DNA from: Actinomycetes bacterium
GTDB taxonomy: Bacteria; Actinomycetota; CALGFH01
Length of the DNA stretch: 5,484 bases
Direction: 5' to 3'
NCBI GenBank assembly: GCA_030152105.1
Contig: JASLIH010000158.1
Coordinates: 1 to 5,484 of the forward strand
Shown: positions 3 to 5,484 of the stretch, one piece after another
Numbering within the stretch: position 1 is the first letter of the stretch
Layout of the letters: every line of letters begins with the position of its first letter
Translations under genes and position numbers: made by a program
The notes under the pieces: generated by a model
What the model saw: only the letters and a program-made list of their open reading frames with translations
What the model was told of the DNA's origin: nothing
Database searches by the model: none

Positions 3-199
3 CCGAGAAGACCTGAGGCGCGGCGACCGGCCGACGCGCCGATCCGCCAGGCCGTGACCGTCCCGTGCCGGTCGACCGGGCGTTCTCCGCCTTCGCCGAC
101 CTGGCCCAGTGGTGGCCCCGTGAGTACACCTGGGCCGCCGATACCCCGGAGGACATCGCCCGACCCAGCGGGAACAGGCCCCCGACCCCGCTGTTGTAA
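3..199 (+). pseudogene. SRPBCC/AHSA1-type protein gene fragment, frameshifted and truncated
   Basis: The left edge encodes what looks like the N-terminal part of an SRPBCC (START/AHSA1-like) ligand-binding domain protein. The frame open from base 3 reads ...PIRQAVTVP up to about base 64. The next frame, from 65, reads VPVDRAFSAFADLAQWWPRE, then YTWAADTPEDIA. Joined, this gives the family's usual beginning: a beta strand, then a P-V-D/E-R-A-F helix, then a W-W pair. The join needs one extra G near 61-67, so a one-base deletion (or a sequencing error) breaks the frame. After PEDIA similarity is lost and the frame stops at TAA 197-199, about 45 codons past the shift; these domains usually run about 140 residues. 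It ends just before the tRNA gene. The family call rests on a short stretch and is moderate; the true start lies left of the window. Confidence 0.45.
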
Positions 200-213
200 G
201 CTCGCCGCAGCGT

Positions 214-295
214 GCGAGCGTGGCGGAACCGGCAGACGCGCCGGGTTTAGGTCCCGGTGTCCTCGGACGTGGGGGTTCGAATCCCCCCGCTCGCA
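214..295 (+). tRNA. tRNA-Leu, anticodon UAG
   Basis: This is a class II tRNA. The acceptor stem is gcgagcg (214-220) paired with cgctcgc (288-294), with discriminator A295. The anticodon stem is ccggg (241-245) with cccgg (253-257), and the 7-nt loop tttaggt places TAG at 248-250, reading leucine CUA/CUG codons. A long variable arm (about 258-270) contains a small gtc/gac stem, as expected for leucine tRNAs. The T arm is ggggg/ccccc (271-275, 283-287) around TTCGAAT. The 3' CCA is not encoded; the DNA continues CAC. The gene appears intact. Leu tRNA genes are common integration targets, and an integrase remnant lies immediately downstream in the opposite orientation. Confidence 0.96.
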
Positions 296-299
296 CACC

Positions 300-629
300 C
301 CTCTGACCAGGTGCTTCGCGCTTCACCTCCTTTCGCCTGCTCGGGGTCGGATGGTCGGTTGTCAACGCCTTGTCAACGGGACGCGCCGGCTCTCGGTCGC
401 GGTCGCCCAAGATGAGCCTGGCGACCGTGCCGGCGGCCTCGGCGTCCAGGCCGGGCAGCACATGGCTGTAGGTGTCCATGGTGATGGCGATGGTCGCGTG
501 CCCGAGGCGCTCGGAGACGACCTTGGCTGGGATGCCGGCGGCCAGGGCGGCGCTGGCGTAGCAGTGGCGCACGTCGTGCGGCCTGATCCTCGGCAGGCTG
601 GCCGCCCGGGCGAACACCGTGCTTCTTGG
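300..629 (-). pseudogene. tyrosine recombinase (phage/ICE integrase), C-terminal remnant
   Basis: The minus strand encodes the C-terminal catalytic half of a tyrosine site-specific recombinase. The readable part starts after a stop at 630-632 and runs VFARAASLPRIRPHDVRHCY and onward. Motifs are in order: H-D-V-R (His at 576-578, Arg at 567-569), L-G-H (498-506) and the nucleophile tyrosine in DTYSHVLPG (Tyr at 468-470), followed by a typical EAAGTVARLILG tail. The N-terminal core-binding domain and first catalytic Arg are absent; to the right lies unrelated sequence. The frame has no stop after the homologous part. It continues antisense across tRNA-Leu and leaves the window, so the stated left end (300) marks where similarity fades, not a stop codon. 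Position next to a tRNA fits integration into that tRNA. It is non-functional as it stands. Confidence 0.85.
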
Positions 630-632
630 TCA

Positions 633-799
633 GGCCACGAAGGGTCGCTATTGGCGAGCCATGGCTTGGTCTGAACCATTCACGCTGGTCGTAAGGCAGG
701 ATACCCATACATATTGCCTATTTCAGGCAAGTGTAGCTCTGGGTTTGACCGTCCAGGTTCCCATGTCGTCTTGCATACCACCTTGCGTGGCAAGCAGGG
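633..799. other. Intergenic patch of lower GC, no gene seen
   Basis: Between the integrase remnant and the first repeat copy the base composition is visibly less GC-rich than the rest of the window (for example around 705-745). I see no convincing coding sequence. It holds a 6-bp hairpin, ttgcct (714-719) with aggcaa (725-730) around a 5-nt loop, and a smaller cttgc/gcaag hairpin (782-794). The change in composition next to an integrase fragment suggests leftover DNA of the former mobile element. That is inference only. Confidence 0.45.
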
Positions 800-918
800 C
801 AGGCTGAGATCACCGTCGAAGACGGCCCGGACCGCAGGTCCGCCAAGAACGCGGACAGGCCGATGAATCAATCGCGCGAAGCGCTCCTCGCGGCCTGGCC
901 GCTCCACTCCCCCGAGGG
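800..918 (+). repeat. GNA-triloop hairpin repeat, copy 1
   Basis: First of three same-orientation intergenic repeats, full-length form. It begins CAGGCTGAGAT. It then holds hairpin 1, ccgtc (813-817)/gacgg (821-825) with loop GAA, and hairpin 2, cggacc (828-833)/ggtccg (837-842) with loop GCA. A gcggacaggcc segment (851-861) and an AATCAATC linker follow. Hairpin 3 is gcgc (874-877)/gcgc (881-884) with loop GAA. The copy closes with the 22-nt module (897-918) that is invariant in all copies, ending cccccgaggg. The outer pair of hairpin 1 (A812, C826) is mismatched here but paired in the other copies. It lies between the integrase remnant and the 3' end of the minus-strand membrane gene. No terminal inverted repeats or target duplications are evident. 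The family is unknown to me. Confidence 0.85.
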
Positions 919-941
919 CGCCGGGTGATCCAGGATCGGGC

Positions 942-972
942 CGTGGGCCGCCACGAGTGACCGGCGCGCCGG
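942..972. other. Paired stem-forming sequences beyond the sigma operon 3' end
   Basis: The gap 919-1009 between repeat copy 1 and the stop of the minus-strand membrane gene holds a cgtgg/ccacg hairpin (942-946, 951-955) and a perfect 12-bp palindrome, ccggcgcgccgg (961-972). They lie about 40-70 nt past the 3' end of the sigma/membrane-protein operon and could contribute to transcription termination. Neither is followed by a T-run on either strand, so the terminator reading is weak. Confidence 0.3.
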
Positions 973-1009
973 CATGTTTACGATTTGGAGGGTGCCGTTG
1001 TCATGGTGG

Positions 1010-1876
1010 TTAGCGGACGCCTAGGGCGCGGCCACAGGCGTTGCCCGGGCCGACGGTTGACCAGCATTCGGCGATCTTGCGGCCGGCCTGGTTGTAGGCG
1101 ACCACGCGTGAGGGCATCCAGGCCTTCTTTACTGGTAGAAGGTAGGAAACGGCGTAGAACTTGACCGGAAACTGGGGTCCGAGCTCAAGGGGCACGATGT
1201 CAATCCGGAATCCGTTCCGGAACAGGATCTGCAGCCGGACCGCTTGTCTGGTAACGGGGCCACTGACTACCGCCAGCGTGCCCTTGTCACCCATGTTGTC
1301 GGACGCCATGCTGGCCTGGAGCAGCTTGAGCCGGTTCTTGGACCCGCCGTGACCGCCGTGGCCGCCGAACAGGGCTCCTCCACCCTTGTCCCAGAGGCCG
1401 TCTGACCAGCAGATCCAGTTCTTGCCGGGGAGCGGCTCCTTGGCCGCCAGCACCCAGGTCTCCCCCAGCACCATGGCCCACATCCGGACCTGGGCCGTAC
1501 CGCCTTCGCACTGCTTCATCTGACTGGTCAGGTCGCTAGCCATCCCCCAAGGGTCGGGGAAGCCTGCTGACCCGAGGTGGATCTGGGCGTCGACCTTGAC
1601 GACCTTCTTGACCGCCGCCGGGTTGCGGATGACCGAGGTGGCCGTCGGCAAGGTGGTCACAGTCGGGGCCGGAGCAAGCGGGGTCTGGCGGCTGGCCAGA
1701 GGGCCGGTGCCCAGCGCCCCTGCCAGGAGCACCAGGGCGACCAGCGAGGCCGTCCCGCCGAGCAGGCGCCGTCGCCGCTGCCGGCCTCGCCGGATCGCCG
1801 CCCCGGGTCCGGATGGGCGACCCAGCTGGGCGGCCTCCTCGGCCGCCCGCTGGAGCCGTGTCTGCAGGTCACTCAT
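1010..1876 (-). CDS. single-pass membrane protein, candidate sigma-factor regulator
   Basis: A 288-residue protein translated directly after the ECF sigma gene; its ATG (1874-1876) overlaps the sigma stop in an ATGA arrangement, so translation is probably coupled. A GAGGAGG sequence lies 13 nt upstream, inside the sigma gene. Residues 1-37 are hydrophilic and end in a basic run (RRGRQRRRRLL), followed by one membrane helix at about 38-60, which predicts N-in, C-out topology. A Pro/Thr-rich linker (about 61-82) leads to a roughly 200-residue external domain with a GGHGGHGG loop (171-178) and four cysteines (123, 156, 271, 281) that could form disulphides. Position and topology match membrane anti-sigma proteins paired with SigE-like sigmas, where the short cytoplasmic part would hold the sigma. 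However, I see no HxxxCxxC zinc anti-sigma motif, and the cytoplasmic part is only about 37 residues. The regulatory role is therefore inferred from context. I do not recognise the external domain. Confidence 0.82.
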   Translation of the reverse strand: MSDLQTRLQRAAEEAAQLGRPSGPGAAIRRGRQRRRRLLGGTASLVALVLLAGALGTGPLASRQTPLAPAPTVTTLPTATSVIRNPAAVKKVVKVDAQIHLGSAGFPDPWGMASDLTSQMKQCEGGTAQVRMWAMVLGETWVLAAKEPLPGKNWICWSDGLWDKGGGALFGGHGGHGGSKNRLKLLQASMASDNMGDKGTLAVVSGPVTRQAVRLQILFRNGFRIDIVPLELGPQFPVKFYAVSYLLPVKKAWMPSRVVAYNQAGRKIAECWSTVGPGNACGRALGVR

Positions 1877-2370
1877 GGGCGGTCCAGCACCTCCTCGGCC
1901 TCCCCGAGCCTGGCCGCCAGCGCCCGCCGGCCGCGGGCCAGCAGACTCTTGACCGTCCCGGTCGGCGCCCGCAGTGTCTGGGCGACCTCCTCGACCGGCA
2001 GGCCGACCAGGTGGTGCAGGACGATCGCCTGGCGCTGGCGGACCGGCAGGGTGCGGAGCGCCTCGACCAGGACCAGGGTCTCGACCGATGCCTCAGGGGC
2101 CTCAAGCGGAGGCCCGATCCGCAGGAGTGCCTTGGCGTGGCAGCGCAGCGTGCGGGCGTGATCGGTGGCCAGGTTCATCGCCACCCGCCGCACCCAGGCT
2201 TCGGGGGCGTTGTAGTCCCGCAGCCATGACCAGCGGACCGACGCCCTGGCGAACGCCTCCTGGACGACGTCCTCGGCCTCATGCAGGTCACCGGTGACCA
2301 GGAACAGTTGGCCGAGGAGCCGGCTGATGGCTCCTGTGTCGAGCTCCTCGAAGCTGCCGCCGCCGGTCAT
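1873..2370 (-). CDS. ECF RNA polymerase sigma factor, SigE-like family
   Basis: A 165-residue extracytoplasmic-function sigma factor, which directs RNA polymerase to a small set of promoters. Region 2 spans about residues 15-78: GQLFLVTGDLHEAEDVVQEA is the characteristic helix, followed by the W-rich RWSWLRDYNAPEAWVRRVAMN promoter-melting segment. A short linker leads to region 4 at about 102-155, with ALRTLPVRQRQAIVLHHLVG and a helix-turn-helix ending TGTVKSLLARGRRAL. Length and motif order fit actinobacterial SigE-type ECF factors. The ATG at 2370 was chosen because family similarity begins just after it and GGAGG lies upstream, although the spacing is only 2 nt. The frame is open for 52 more codons upstream, but that extension is Cys-rich and unlike sigma factors. 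The membrane protein gene starts at its stop codon, suggesting an operon of sigma and regulator. Which signal it answers cannot be told. Confidence 0.93.
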   Translation of the reverse strand: MTGGGSFEELDTGAISRLLGQLFLVTGDLHEAEDVVQEAFARASVRWSWLRDYNAPEAWVRRVAMNLATDHARTLRCHAKALLRIGPPLEAPEASVETLVLVEALRTLPVRQRQAIVLHHLVGLPVEEVAQTLRAPTGTVKSLLARGRRALAARLGEAEEVLDRP

Positions 2371-2609
2371 CGCCTCCGTCTCTCTGAGAGCCACACACAG
2401 AGAAGCACGCCACAGAGCCGTGATTGGTGGCATCTGGCCGCAACAAGGATTCCCACAGCACCAGAGAGACGCTCCCGCTCGAAGACCGCCAGCTGCTCCC
2501 GCACCCGGACACACGATGCGGTACAACGCACCGGGGCCTGCTCGCTCGGCCTCATGGAATCGGACCAGTGGAGCGTCAGTGGGCCACTACTCACCTGAGT
2601 GGTCACGGG
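2371..2609. promoter_or_regulatory. Upstream region of the sigma operon
   Basis: This non-coding stretch should hold the promoter of the minus-strand sigma operon. A 10-bp perfect inverted repeat, cgtctctctg (2377-2386) and cagagagacg (2462-2471), brackets the probable leader. On the minus strand a GGGAATCC sequence near 2450 could be an ECF-type -35 element, but I find no convincing -10 partner at the right spacing, so no promoter is placed. An ORF reading through here in the sigma frame is not protein-like. Confidence 0.3.
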
Positions 2610-2731
2610 GTCAGGCTGAGATTGCCGTCGAAGACGGCGCGGACCGTAGGTCCGCAGAAGACGCGGACAGGCCGTTTATCAATCGCGCGAAGCGCACCAC
2701 TCGGCGCGGCCGCTCCACTCCCCCGAGGGGG
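2610..2731 (+). repeat. GNA-triloop hairpin repeat, copy 2
   Basis: Full-length copy and the best-formed of the three. After gtcaggctgagatt it has hairpin 1, gccgtc (2624-2629)/gacggc (2633-2638) with loop GAA, and hairpin 2, gcggacc (2639-2645)/ggtccgc (2649-2655) with loop GTA. An alternative partner for the 3' arm of hairpin 2, gcggac, is at 2663-2668. A TATCAATC linker precedes hairpin 3, gcgc (2685-2688)/gcgc (2692-2695) with loop GAA. The invariant 22-nt module is at 2708-2729, extended here to cccc-cga-gggg. It sits between the divergent sigma operon and the first membrane sensor gene, about 260 nt from the start of the latter. Nothing in the spacing suggests a conventional riboswitch. 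Confidence 0.87.
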
Positions 2732-2870
2732 CGGTGAGGCGAGCGGTGGCCAGGACCCAGCGCTACTCCAGGTAGTCGCGGAGTACACGCGCGTGAGCGC
2801 TGTGCAGGTCGCAGGTCGTGCAGGTGACGGGCGAGCGTCAGAGCCGCAATATCCTGGAGTGAGCACGAGT

Positions 2871-2989: not shown

Positions 2990-4285
2990 GTGAGCCTGCC
3001 TGCCCGGACCAGGACCATGGCGGTGACGTCTGCCGCCGGACTGGGCTGGCCACGCCGTTGGGCGGCCGGGCTGGCCTGGGGGCTGTGGGGGCTGGCCATG
3101 CTCGGCCTGGCCGTGGTGCCCTGGATTGATCGCCTGATGATCCGGGCCGGCCGGCCTGACCTGGTCGTGTTGGTCCCGGGCAGTGTCGTTGGCCCGGTGG
3201 TGGCGGTGCTGAGCGCGGCCACGGTCGGGGCGGTGCTGGCCAGCCGCCGCCCCCGCCACCCGGTGGGCTGGCTGCTGCTGGGCTTTGCCCTCTCGCTGAC
3301 CGCCAGCGGGGTGATCAACTCCTATGTGACCTACGGGCTGGTCGTCCGTCCCGGGGCGCTGCCCGCCGCCAACCTCTACGCCCGGGTCTACGGGCCGATG
3401 ATCTACCTGTCCCTGGCCATCATCGGGTTCATCCTGTTGCTGACCCCGACCGGTTCGCCCCCGACACGGCGCTGGCGCTGGTGGGGACGGGTGTCCACCG
3501 GCGCCCTGGCCGTGGTCCTGGTCTCGGCCATGGTGGCGCCGGGATCGCTGGACCCGGTGCGCATGTCGGTCCGGGGCCCGCTGGACCCGCTCTGCTACGG
3601 CGGCGCCCTGCGGGCGGCCAACGTGCTCGCCCAGGCCGTCGCCGTCCTGATCATCCTGGTCGGTGGCGGGTCGCTGGTGGTGCGCTACCGCCGTGCCCGC
3701 GGCCTGGAGCGCCTGCAGCTCCGCTGGGTGACGCTGGCCGCCGCCCTGACCGGTGTGGCGTATCTGGCCTACGCGGTCCTGCTGGCCTTGGGGAGCCGGC
3801 TGGCCGACTGGATCTCCGCCGGCGCCACCACCTTCCTGCCCTTGGCCGCCGGGGCGGCGATCCTGCGCTACCGGCTGTACGACCTGGACCGGATCGTGAG
3901 CCGCACCCTGGCCTACGGGCTGCTCACGGTCCTGCTCGGGCTCGGCTACGCGGCCGTGGTCCTGGGCCTGGGCCGGCTGCTGGGCCAGGACTCCAGCCTG
4001 GTCGTGGCCGCGGCCACCCTGGCCGTGGCCGCCGCCTTCCAGCCGGCCCGCCGCCGGGTCCAGGGGGCGGTCGACCGGCGCTTCAACCGCCGCCGCCACG
4101 ATGCCGCCCGGATCATCGAGGGGTTCGGGGCCCGTCTGCGCGACCAGGTCGACCTCGACACCCTCACGGCTGACCTGCTGGCGGTGGTCGACCAGAGCAT
4201 GCAGCCGACCCAGGCATCGCTGTGGCTACGACCCCAAGCGCCGTCGGGAACGGCTGGTGTGACCCTGGCTCAGCAGCGAACCTGA
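2990..4285 (+). CDS. polytopic membrane sensor-like protein lacking a kinase domain
   Basis: A 431-residue membrane protein. Hydrophobic segments suggest about 8-10 helices: roughly 24-46, 61-84, 92-112, 136-153, 168-186, 208-231, 246-268, 275-292, 307-329 and 335-350. Signature stretches are SRRPRHPVGWLLLG (85-98), LTPTGS (152-156 region), RRWRWW (160-165), RYRRARGLERLQLRW (232-246) and RYRLYDLDRIVSRTLAYG (293-310). A cytoplasmic tail follows with VQGAVDRRFNRRRHDAARII (357-376) and a linker resembling the start of a signalling helix (DLDTLTADLLAVVDQSMQPT). The RYRLYD-DRIVSRTL-YG element and the FNRRR-D linker are typical of the membrane half of ComP-like and actinobacterial histidine kinases. 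Here the protein stops soon after WLRP (412-415), with no His-box or ATPase domain. It may act as a stand-alone receptor or be a kinase that lost its output. Substrate or ligand is unknown. The next gene is a paralog in the same direction. Confidence 0.9.
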   Translation: MSLPARTRTMAVTSAAGLGWPRRWAAGLAWGLWGLAMLGLAVVPWIDRLMIRAGRPDLVVLVPGSVVGPVVAVLSAATVGAVLASRRPRHPVGWLLLGFALSLTASGVINSYVTYGLVVRPGALPAANLYARVYGPMIYLSLAIIGFILLLTPTGSPPTRRWRWWGRVSTGALAVVLVSAMVAPGSLDPVRMSVRGPLDPLCYGGALRAANVLAQAVAVLIILVGGGSLVVRYRRARGLERLQLRWVTLAAALTGVAYLAYAVLLALGSRLADWISAGATTFLPLAAGAAILRYRLYDLDRIVSRTLAYGLLTVLLGLGYAAVVLGLGRLLGQDSSLVVAAATLAVAAAFQPARRRVQGAVDRRFNRRRHDAARIIEGFGARLRDQVDLDTLTADLLAVVDQSMQPTQASLWLRPQAPSGTAGVTLAQQRT

Positions 4286-4375
4286 AGGCCGCAACGACCG
4301 CCAACCAGACGACCTCCGACCGGCCCGCCGTAGCTGCGGCCTTGGTCATGCCGTACCACCCTGGGTGGCCACCAC

Positions 4376-4460
4376 GTCAGGATCAGATCGCCGCCGCAGG
4401 CGGCGCGGACCGCAGGTCCGCCAGAAGGCTCGGCGTGGCCGCTCCACTCCCCCGAGGGGG
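4376..4460 (+). repeat. GNA-triloop hairpin repeat, copy 3 (internally deleted)
   Basis: Short form of the repeat, in the gap between the two paralogous membrane genes. Hairpin 1 is gccgcc (4390-4395)/ggcggc (4399-4404) with loop GCA. Hairpin 2 is gcggacc (4405-4411)/ggtccgc (4415-4421) with loop GCA. The sequence then passes directly from cagaagg to ctcggcgtggcc, so about 38 nt carrying the alternative gcggac arm and hairpin 3 are missing compared with copy 2. The invariant 22-nt module is kept at 4437-4458. Compared with copy 2, hairpin 1 carries a paired T-A to C-G change. A small ccacc/ggtgg hairpin (4356-4368) lies just upstream and may help end transcription of the preceding gene. Confidence 0.85.
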
Positions 4461-4504
4461 GCCGTCAACTCCTCATCGCCCGCCAGGTGGCCGGCATGTC
4501 GTGG

Positions 4505-4536
4505 CCGTACCGGTGTCCGTAACGCTCTCGGTACGG
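4505..4536. promoter_or_regulatory. 8-bp inverted repeat upstream of second membrane gene
   Basis: ccgtaccg (4505-4512) and cggtacgg (4529-4536) are perfect inverted repeats 16 nt apart. The spacer contains the CGTAACG motif (4518-4524) shared with the upstream region of the first paralog, where a single ccgtaccg (2931-2938) also occurs. An operator for a dimeric regulator, or an RNA hairpin, are both possible. The region from 4286 to 4588 otherwise holds only the repeat copy and no gene. Confidence 0.4.
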
Positions 4537-4601
4537 AGGCGGGTCACACTGGCAGGTGACCGAGGACGCTTGGGACGGTGACCGATCCGGAGGGGGCCTG
4601 C

Positions 4602-4625
4602 ATGCGCCGACGACCATGGGGATGA
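4602..4625 (+). other. Seven-codon leader ORF overlapping the next start
   Basis: GGAGGGGG (4589-4596) is the only strong ribosome binding site before the second membrane gene. It sits 5 nt from ATG 4602, which opens a frame encoding only MRRRPWG before TGA 4623-4625. That stop overlaps ATG 4622, an in-frame start of the membrane gene (ATGA). The layout suggests translational coupling through a leader peptide. The alternative is that the leader is accidental and the site serves ATG 4616, 19 nt away. Confidence 0.4.
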
Positions 4626-5484
4626 CCCGAGGCGCGAGAGCGGCGTGGCCGCGGTGGTGGCCGGCCGGGCTGGGGTGGGCGCTGTGGGCGCTGACCCTGC
4701 TCGCCATCCCCGCGGTCGCCTGGCTCGATCAGCTGCTGCGCCGTGCCGGCCTGGCCGAGATGGCCTGGTTGCACCTCAGCAGCATCCCCCAGACGGCGGC
4801 GGCGGTGAGCGCGGCCACGGTCGGGGCGGTCCTGGCCAGCCGCCGGCCCCGCCACCCGGTGGGCTGGCTGCTGCTCGGCCTGGGGCTGTCGCTGACCCTG
4901 TGGGGCCTGTCCTTCGGGTACACCCGCTACGGTCTGGTGGCCCGGCCGGGGGCGCTGCCGGCCGCCGCCTACCTGGCCGGATTCCACACCGGCATCACCC
5001 TCATCGGGCTGTCGTGCGCCGGTTTCGTCCTGCTGCTTACCCCGACCGGGTCGCTGCCCTCGCGTCGCTGGCGCTGGTGGGCCAGGGTCGCGGCGGCCGC
5101 GGCCGTGGTGTGGCTGCTGACATCGGTCGTCCACCCGGCACCGCTGTATCCGGAGTTCCCGGCCATCGGGAACCCGCTGGCCGTCCCGTTCCTGCCTCGT
5201 GGCCTGCTGGACGTCGCCCAACCGGCCGCCGCGGTCGTCATCCTGGTCTCGCTGGTCGTCGGGGCCGTGTCGCTGGTGGGGCGCTTTCGTCGCGCCCGCG
5301 GGACCGAGCGGCAGCAGCTGCGCTGGCTTGCCTGGGGGGCTGCCCTGGCCGCGGTGGCGTTGCTGGTCGCCCTGACCGGCCTGTTCCTGCTGGACAGCGC
5401 CACCCTGGTCGATGTGGCCCTGGGTGTCTGCACGGGGCTGCTGCCGCTGGCCACCGGGGCGGCGATCTTGCGCTATCGGCTGTA
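4616..5484 (+). CDS. second polytopic membrane sensor-like protein, partial (runs off window)
   Basis: A paralog of the preceding gene; 289 codons are visible and the 3' end lies outside the window. Collinear matches include WPRWWPAGLGWALW (11-24), ASRRPRHPVGWLLLG (74-88), RYGLVARPGALPAA (104-117), LLLTPTGSLPSRRWRWW (139-155), FRRARGTERQQLRW (224-237) and, at the very edge, GAAILRYRLY. At least seven hydrophobic segments are visible. Whether a kinase domain follows cannot be seen. The start is uncertain: ATG 4616 gives the longest form, while ATG 4622 (third codon) overlaps the stop of the leader ORF and may be the real one. Tandem placement and identity show a duplication. A 72-nt block is almost identical between the copies, while flanking codons have diverged. 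The two proteins could work together or sense different ligands; that is inference. Confidence 0.9.
   Translation, partial: MGMTRGARAAWPRWWPAGLGWALWALTLLAIPAVAWLDQLLRRAGLAEMAWLHLSSIPQTAAAVSAATVGAVLASRRPRHPVGWLLLGLGLSLTLWGLSFGYTRYGLVARPGALPAAAYLAGFHTGITLIGLSCAGFVLLLTPTGSLPSRRWRWWARVAAAAAVVWLLTSVVHPAPLYPEFPAIGNPLAVPFLPRGLLDVAQPAAAVVILVSLVVGAVSLVGRFRRARGTERQQLRWLAWGAALAAVALLVALTGLFLLDSATLVDVALGVCTGLLPLATGAAILRYRL

Follow-up and report, generated by a model that had tools for sequence, protein, structure and literature searches.

The stretch of DNA analysed here, referred to as the window, spans positions 1–5,484 of contig JASLIH010000158.1 and contains three plus-strand copies of a sequence that we call element A, which occupy gaps between the predicted genes (Table 1). 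Near its left end, a tRNA-Leu gene lies beside a piece of a tyrosine recombinase (window positions 214–617), an arrangement with the look of a decayed genomic-island junction; the N-terminal part of the recombinase was not found between the C-terminal piece and copy 1. Positions 3017–5484 hold a tandem pair of related genes, membrane-protein-like in character, that have many DNA matches in genomes G029 and G014; one of these two paralogs follows copy 2 and the other follows copy 3. A first-pass annotation of the window had proposed the three copies, and both a repeat search and the bounds given by our models confirm them; their starts had been placed too far downstream, as element A begins about 25 nt earlier, with P0.

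Table 1. Features of the window and of related stretches. Positions refer to the window unless a locus (L) is given.
Feature	Position	Strand	Remarks
tRNA-Leu	214-296		
Tyrosine recombinase, C-terminal piece (Phage_integrase)	frame 3-617	-	
Element A, copy 1	774..924	+	full length; R2 match 156 bits (copy part of model); repeat families D1, D5, D7
Gene	1010-1876	-	no Pfam family; pairs with 1873-2370
ECF sigma factor gene	1873-2370	-	best NCBIfam model SigE-fam_strep, just under cut-off
Element A, copy 2	2586..2735	+	full length; R2 match 146.2 bits (copy part of model); D1, D5, D7
Hairpin P1 of copy 2	2624..2638	+	GAA triloop
Hairpin P2 of copy 2	2639..2655	+	GTA triloop
Hairpin P3 of copy 2	2663..2713	+	arms 2663-2674 and 2702-2713, imperfect here; hand reading, outside RNAalifold consensus
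Inner hairpin P3a of copy 2	2685-2695	+	GCGC-GAA-GCGC; within P3 beside ATCAATC; in RNAalifold consensus
Hairpin P4 of copy 2	2720..2731	+	within 3' module; 3 pairs in RNAalifold consensus
Repeat B (second dispersed repeat)	2746..2866	+	BLAST bounds; after A here and at some other loci, also alone
Related genes	3017-4285 and 4616-5484	+	50% over 290 aa; second is a HisKA_7TM match under curated cut-off
Element A, copy 3	4352..4464	+	without P3 5' arm and P3a; R2 match 85.7 bits (copy part of model); flank alignment with L043
Segment C (follows some A copies)	L042:56-185, L043:884-956, L044:17958-18058, L046:4998-5063		

Element A is probably a non-coding, dispersed repeat of about 150 nt that lies between genes and consists of a row of hairpins. 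The repeat search of the window yielded all three copies as family D1 (79 nt; the other two copies are 81% and 70% identical to the reference) and family D5 (32 nt), and recovered copies 1 and 2 again as D7; these two copies are 79% alike over their alignment, and copy 3 is about 37 nt shorter than the other two, lacking the 5' arm of P3 and the inner hairpin P3a. All three share a CAGG..AGAT start and an identical 22-nt 3' module, GGCCGCTCCACTCCCCCGAGGG, both of which had been pointed out before. The added 5' part of element A is P0 (CCAC..GTGG), its register being shifted in copy 2. A coding function is unlikely: of the frames read in register across 12 copies none is open in all and one is open in nine, and the distance from one anchor to another varies modulo 3 among the copies.

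A covariance model built from the three window copies only found matches in two other genomes with E values of 2.7e-28 and 1.3e-26, which shows that element A is more than a chance resemblance or an artefact; the first-pass annotation had suggested searching relatives with such a model. Among the candidates scored, this model (R1) gave at least nine matches in G029, at least seven in G043 and none in G014, and a DNA search with a typed consensus, scoring 40 of 82–128 first-look candidates per genome, gave at least ten, at least nine and none, respectively. Element A is present in two of the three genomes available for the class of G029, which are also all those available for its order and its family. 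In a sample of 396 genomes of the phylum centred on G029, searched with stricter filters that weak members could escape, strong matches occurred in G029 and G043 only; five genomes had a match at E ≤ 0.01, namely these two and three with weak single matches (23.4–24.9 bits, E 0.0017–0.008 per genome), which we rejected as poorly aligned and close to the chance number for 396 genomes. Among the sampled genomes, element A is restricted to one actinobacterial lineage. Within a phylum sample of 396 genomes, G029 was found to encode a 72% relative of the protein encoded at window positions 1010–1876, for which a protein search returned many relatives, most of them, among the matches listed, from JGI; a search of viral contigs with this protein, aimed at window-like contigs, found no relative.

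Searches for a viral or plasmid origin gave no element A around the 16-mer hits in viral contigs; the best of nine 17-mer hits was a 52-position partial match (22.0 bits, L169) that we read as chance, two longer patterns had no hits, and the matches in plasmids (2) and phages (31) were all weak (E 0.03–0.1). A single 20-mer hit in genome contigs lies inside a Streptosporangium coding gene; it was taken as a chance hit and used only as the way into the phylum sample. When the Rfam covariance models were run against the window, only the tRNA family appeared at E ≤ 1, in keeping with the earlier failure to recognise a named family, and no description of element A was found in the titles and abstract openings of the literature searched.

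The structural analysis rests on an alignment (A3) of 12 full copies, three from the window, five from G029 and four from G043, outside which there are ten partial matches (C878, C763, C66, C645, C822, C24, C179b, C45b and C111 twice). A chain of pairings from P0 to P4 was drawn by hand from one alignment row and then counted over all rows; it contains the consecutive hairpins claimed by the first-pass annotation and adds their GNA triloops. Across the alignment, 89.9% of 417 cells in this chain pair, a value as high in 2 of 500 column shuffles, and the covariation score and the number of double-change cells were each reached by 1 of 500, while the numbers of pairs with double changes (5; 108/500 shuffles) and of further pair types (20; 185/500) were not unusual. 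Redistributing the stem substitutions of each copy led to an expectation of 67.5 broken pairs versus the 42 observed, with none of 2,000 redistributions as low; under this null, pair-keeping changes on both sides were seen in 11 cells versus 1.9 expected, and five pairs versus 1.8 expected had both-side changes, a count reached in 2.9%. With a structure taken from one of the rows tested, and with both nulls leaving the relatedness of the copies in, pairing in element A is kept better than by random redistribution of the same substitutions, and covariation support for the fold is thin.

The RNAalifold consensus of the 12 copies includes P1, P2, P3a and part of P4, without P0 and the long P3; instead, the 3' arm of P0 pairs with a CCAC close to the 3' end, each arm of P3 folds on itself and the covariation term is unfavourable (+0.44). 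The only candidate in this consensus for terminal inverted repeats of the classical MITE kind is a pairing of 4 bp (columns 16–19 with 138–141). Divergence from the consensus sequence is 9.1% in stems (77/847) versus 17.7% at unpaired sites (148/838), and is lowest in P3a (3/121), which together with ATCAATC inside P3 makes up the best conserved block of element A. P2 (35/204, 17.2%) diverges no less than the unpaired sites, and divergence is low in the unpaired stretch ATGAATCAATC (columns 94–105; 9/114, 7.9%). Not counting a gapped loop and the P3a that copy 3 lacks, GNA triloops make up 28 of 34 loops in element A (P1 9/11, P2 9/12, P3a 10/11); outside it, the examined stretches contain 213 triloop hairpins whose perfect stems measure at least 6, and 18 of these have GNA or TNC loops, a count that uses a different stem criterion. 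Such GNA loops on G-C stems are described as exceptionally stable DNA mini-hairpins (PMC4686876). Compared with shuffled sequences, the plus strand folds moderately better (mean z about -2.0 as RNA and -1.9 as DNA), with values near 0 for copy 1 of the window and for C57b, and the minus strand has a mean z of about -1.0 as RNA.

The 12 copies form a star-like tree in which genomes are mixed, genome labels changing five times versus a shuffled mean of 5.8 (as low in 70 of 200 shuffles), and the only supported fork joins two G043 copies (87/88). Pairwise identity among copies is 67–89%, a range in which no recent activity shows, and about half of the matches are truncated (10/19). Element A has apparently been amplified and is now decaying. 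Copy 3 is probably orthologous to the copy on contig C851 of G029, as gene end and spacer align, and the C851 copy has the P3 5' arm and P3a; identity is 85.0% in element A (102/120) versus 80.8% in the gene end (362/448) and 81.5% in the spacer (44/54). C45 of G043 and C763 of G029 probably form a second ortholog pair, with 77% identity over 96 nt of element A versus 70% over 240 nt of gene segment and neighbour genes that are 51% identical over 122 aa. Such orthology implies that some copies are older than the split of the G029, G043 and window genomes, and element A may be mildly constrained. The stretches L045:319-825 (G029:C763) and L051:10744-11208 (G043:C45) are homologous small genes without a Pfam match that read away from element A.

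Gene context was compiled for 20 copies (three from the window and 17 others, with C822 and the second C111 piece left out), 15 of which have both neighbours. As the first-pass annotation had indicated for the window, no neighbouring gene or orientation is constant: seven copies lie between converging, six between tandem and two between diverging genes, and copy 2, one of the latter, is by its position no simple terminator. Background gaps of at least 150 nt comprise 20 converging, 40 tandem and 22 diverging ones, so that the excess of converging gaps (7/15 versus 20/82) is not significant (Fisher P 0.11). The 40 neighbour proteins scanned are diverse, including SnoaL-like, EthD, ABM, sulfatase and AadA_C-type nucleotidyltransferase proteins, and several transposases and recombinase genes or fragments are among the neighbours; the C248 copy is overlapped by a weak gene call (121 aa, score 8). 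Long gene segments are common to the 1-kb flanks only in the combinations copy 2/copy 3, copy 3/C851 and C45/C763. A replication-strand bias was also considered and rejected, GC skew along the strand of element A being positive at 9 and negative at 5 of 14 loci, with values of at most 0.044.

Six neighbouring pairs of copies are less than 4 kb apart, two each in the window, in G029 (C154, C57) and in G043 (C179, C45); all are in the same strand and bracket one to three predicted genes. Two such pairs per genome arose in 33 (G029) and 23 (G043) of 20,000 uniform placements. Contig ends are disregarded in this test, and the copies were the reason for choosing the window; each G043 pair includes one partial, weak copy (C179b, C45b). 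Same-strand clustering around genes is the single feature that a plain repeat leaves unaccounted for. The block of sigma factor and membrane-protein genes between copies 1 and 2 (window positions 953–2476) is 82% conserved in contig C614 of G029, in which no element A was found with model R2 (E ≤ 0.5) or BLAST (E ≤ 1e-3). Similarity to C614 breaks off 29 nt short of copy 1 and 110 nt short of copy 2; for the flanking sequence past the block, four tests gave P values of 0.03, 0.705, 0.515 and 0.09. These comparisons are compatible with a possible synteny break near element A; however, G029 and G043 share almost nothing outside element A (one contig compared), and the break may therefore be a coincidence.

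No target duplications were detected at the 12 copies, the longest direct repeat being 4.75 nt versus 4.93 nt for mismatched flanks, a comparison in which age or misplaced boundaries could hide duplications, and no filled site was seen opposite an empty one, G029 and G043 being too distant. The first-pass annotation had proposed looking for a transposase or reverse transcriptase gene beside a copy; neither a Y1 transposase nor a reverse transcriptase was found on any contig bearing element A. Y1_Tnp (PF01797) has no match in G029 and G014 and one, with a stop, in G043 (contig C31, where no element A was found), and RVT_1 has none in G029, four in G043 and none in G014; these genomes are in many short contigs and may be incomplete, and partners could lie past contig ends. 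Phage_integrase matches number 27 in G029, 43 in G043 and 4 in G014. They occur on four of the six G043 contigs that bear element A, being below the curated cut-off on C111 and several kb from element A on C24 and C111; because they are absent from the G029 contigs that bear it, the association is not general. In the window, L051 and L053, whole or fragmentary tyrosine recombinase genes are situated no more than about 2 kb away from copies.

Two further repeats accompany element A at some loci. Repeat B has 12 matches in the examined G029 and G043 stretches besides the window, and none among the matches listed for G014; it follows element A at copy 2, C154b, C57a and C45, follows a weak 19-nt remnant of element A (E 0.021) in L052, and stands without element A at eight places. 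Segment C follows element A at C154a, C851 and C57b, has GAA-loop hairpins and is weakly similar to element A (3 of 500 shuffles reach the score), and C878 looks like an A/C chimera. Altogether, B or C follows 7 of the 12 full copies, and neither follows the other five (window copies 1 and 3, C179a, C248 and C17).

With its multiple intergenic copies, its structure, its length within 100–200 bp and no gene of its own, element A fits the small non-autonomous structured intergenic repeats, and fits none of the named families tested. It resembles the CcrM-associated intergenic repeats (CIR) of Caulobacter and Brucella in being intergenic and in having independent arms. CIR are described in PMC2229807 as elements of about 110 bp, intergenic and without TIRs, with two long, independent arms joined by a linker in place of end-to-end pairing and a conserved GANTC exposed in the terminal loop; this description sets element A apart, whose hairpins number four to five, are short and GC-rich and end in GNA triloops, and which contains GANTC in only 4 of 12 copies, outside the hairpin loops. 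ERIC/IRU and related RU are likewise dispersed, intergenic, structured and of the same size class (ERIC 127 bp). ERIC is listed with TIRs, TSDs and a terminal TA (PMC2229807, Table 1), whereas element A shows no TSD, and copy 2 had no match in 5,426 E. coli genomes; the target site duplications that are a hallmark of classical MITEs, including ERIC, RUP and Correia, set it apart from these as well. GC-rich hairpins, extragenic dispersal and a proposed single-stranded DNA mobility in trans are shared with REP and REPIN sequences. REPINs, in the account of PMC3116915, consist of two REPs in inverted orientation and are associated with a RAYT gene, whereas the close pairs of element A are all direct and no intact Y1 gene was found. 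The first-pass reading of a REP/MITE-like DNA element thus holds for the hairpins and the star-like amplification and not for a RAYT-type Y1 gene near copies, inverted doublets or target duplications. Integron attC sites are similar in folding as single-stranded DNA, in size (57–141 bp) and in bracketing genes as direct copies; however, the attC core motifs RYYYAAC/GTTRRRY (as given in PMC3053210) occur in 1 of 12 copies of element A and not at its ends, and attC forms one palindrome versus several hairpins in element A.

Element A is multi-copy, lies between predicted genes and carries consecutive GNA-triloop hairpins, with copies that radiate in a star-like manner. We consider it moderately probable that it belongs, as a new family, with small non-autonomous structured repeats of the kind of CIR, ERIC or REPIN, with mobility provided by an enzyme acting in trans. 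Element A would fold as single-stranded DNA (or as a transcript) and be recognised through its hairpins, perhaps above all via the near-invariant ATCAATC and GCGC-GAA-GCGC block; the enzyme would insert it elsewhere, and inserted copies would afterwards mostly decay. Several observations speak against this reading: no filled and empty site, target duplications or partner enzyme were found, the RNAalifold consensus differs from the drawn chain and some covariation counts are not unusual, one frame stays open in nine of the 12 copies, random insertion does not explain the same-strand clustering, and the two ortholog pairs in which element A is more alike than the neighbouring gene hint at constraint. 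These pairs, each with element A beside the same gene in two genomes, also speak for the structured RNA that the first-pass annotation had named as an alternative, that is, a non-coding RNA kept for its function, standalone or within transcripts, where it would act in mRNA stability or termination. Stems that are better conserved than unpaired sites, some double changes and the strand difference in folding (-2.0 versus -1.0, RNA means) agree with such a role, and ERIC and NEMIS repeats are described as affecting mRNA stability (PMC2229807). An RNA role is nonetheless less likely because the context is unstable, with inconstant neighbour genes and orientations and 2 of 15 copies between diverging genes, and because many copies are truncated; an entire arm present in the probable ortholog is missing from copy 3, Rfam offers no match and the converging-gene excess is not significant, and we regard this explanation as fairly unlikely.

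The followers B and C, the A/C chimera and the paralogous genes behind copies 2 and 3 would also suit a larger modular repeat (A+B or A+C) of which element A is a piece, the copies seen being truncated parts of one longer mobile element, or copying of element A together with neighbour genes. We think this unlikely, given two different followers, the five of 12 full copies with neither, the eight places with B alone and the 1-kb flanks with few shared gene segments. The gene-bracketing pairs, rare in uniform placements, are what a folded single-stranded recombination site bordering movable gene cassettes, attC-like but outside the attC family, would account for, as would the conserved sigma block in C614 that lacks a detected copy and whose similarity ends near the copies, and the whole or fragmentary tyrosine recombinase genes at up to about 2 kb from some copies. 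Yet strand-biased insertion would equally give same-strand neighbours, two of the six pairs include a partial, weak copy, and the limits of the placement test, the choice of the window and a possibly coincidental synteny break all weigh on this evidence. The three recombinase sequences (partial gene calls) score 22.7–43.4 bits versus a cut-off of 265 for the integron integrase model TIGR02249, none of the 27 G029 Phage_integrase matches is on a contig bearing element A, and the attC core motifs are all but missing (1/12), so that we judge such a cassette border to be quite unlikely. A more specific form by analogy, in which element A would be the folded recombination site of a novel gene-cassette system, its direct copies flanking genes that a recombinase acting in trans would shuffle, integron-analogous but unrelated, and with GNA mini-hairpins replacing the attC fold, appears very improbable.

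Under the favoured reading of a small structured repeat, element A adds an unnamed family to an actinobacterial lineage that has been sparsely sampled; its GNA-triloop signature is unusually clear, and it is notable for gene-bracketing copies in direct orientation and for having no recognised mobility enzyme. Proof of mobility would make it a REPIN-like system that lacks a known RAYT, and movement of the bracketed genes would mean a new cassette system. As a separate observation, three same-strand Phage_integrase matches lie in a row on G043:C45, G043:C212 and G029:C542, triplets that we take to be reminiscent of recombinase-in-trio elements.
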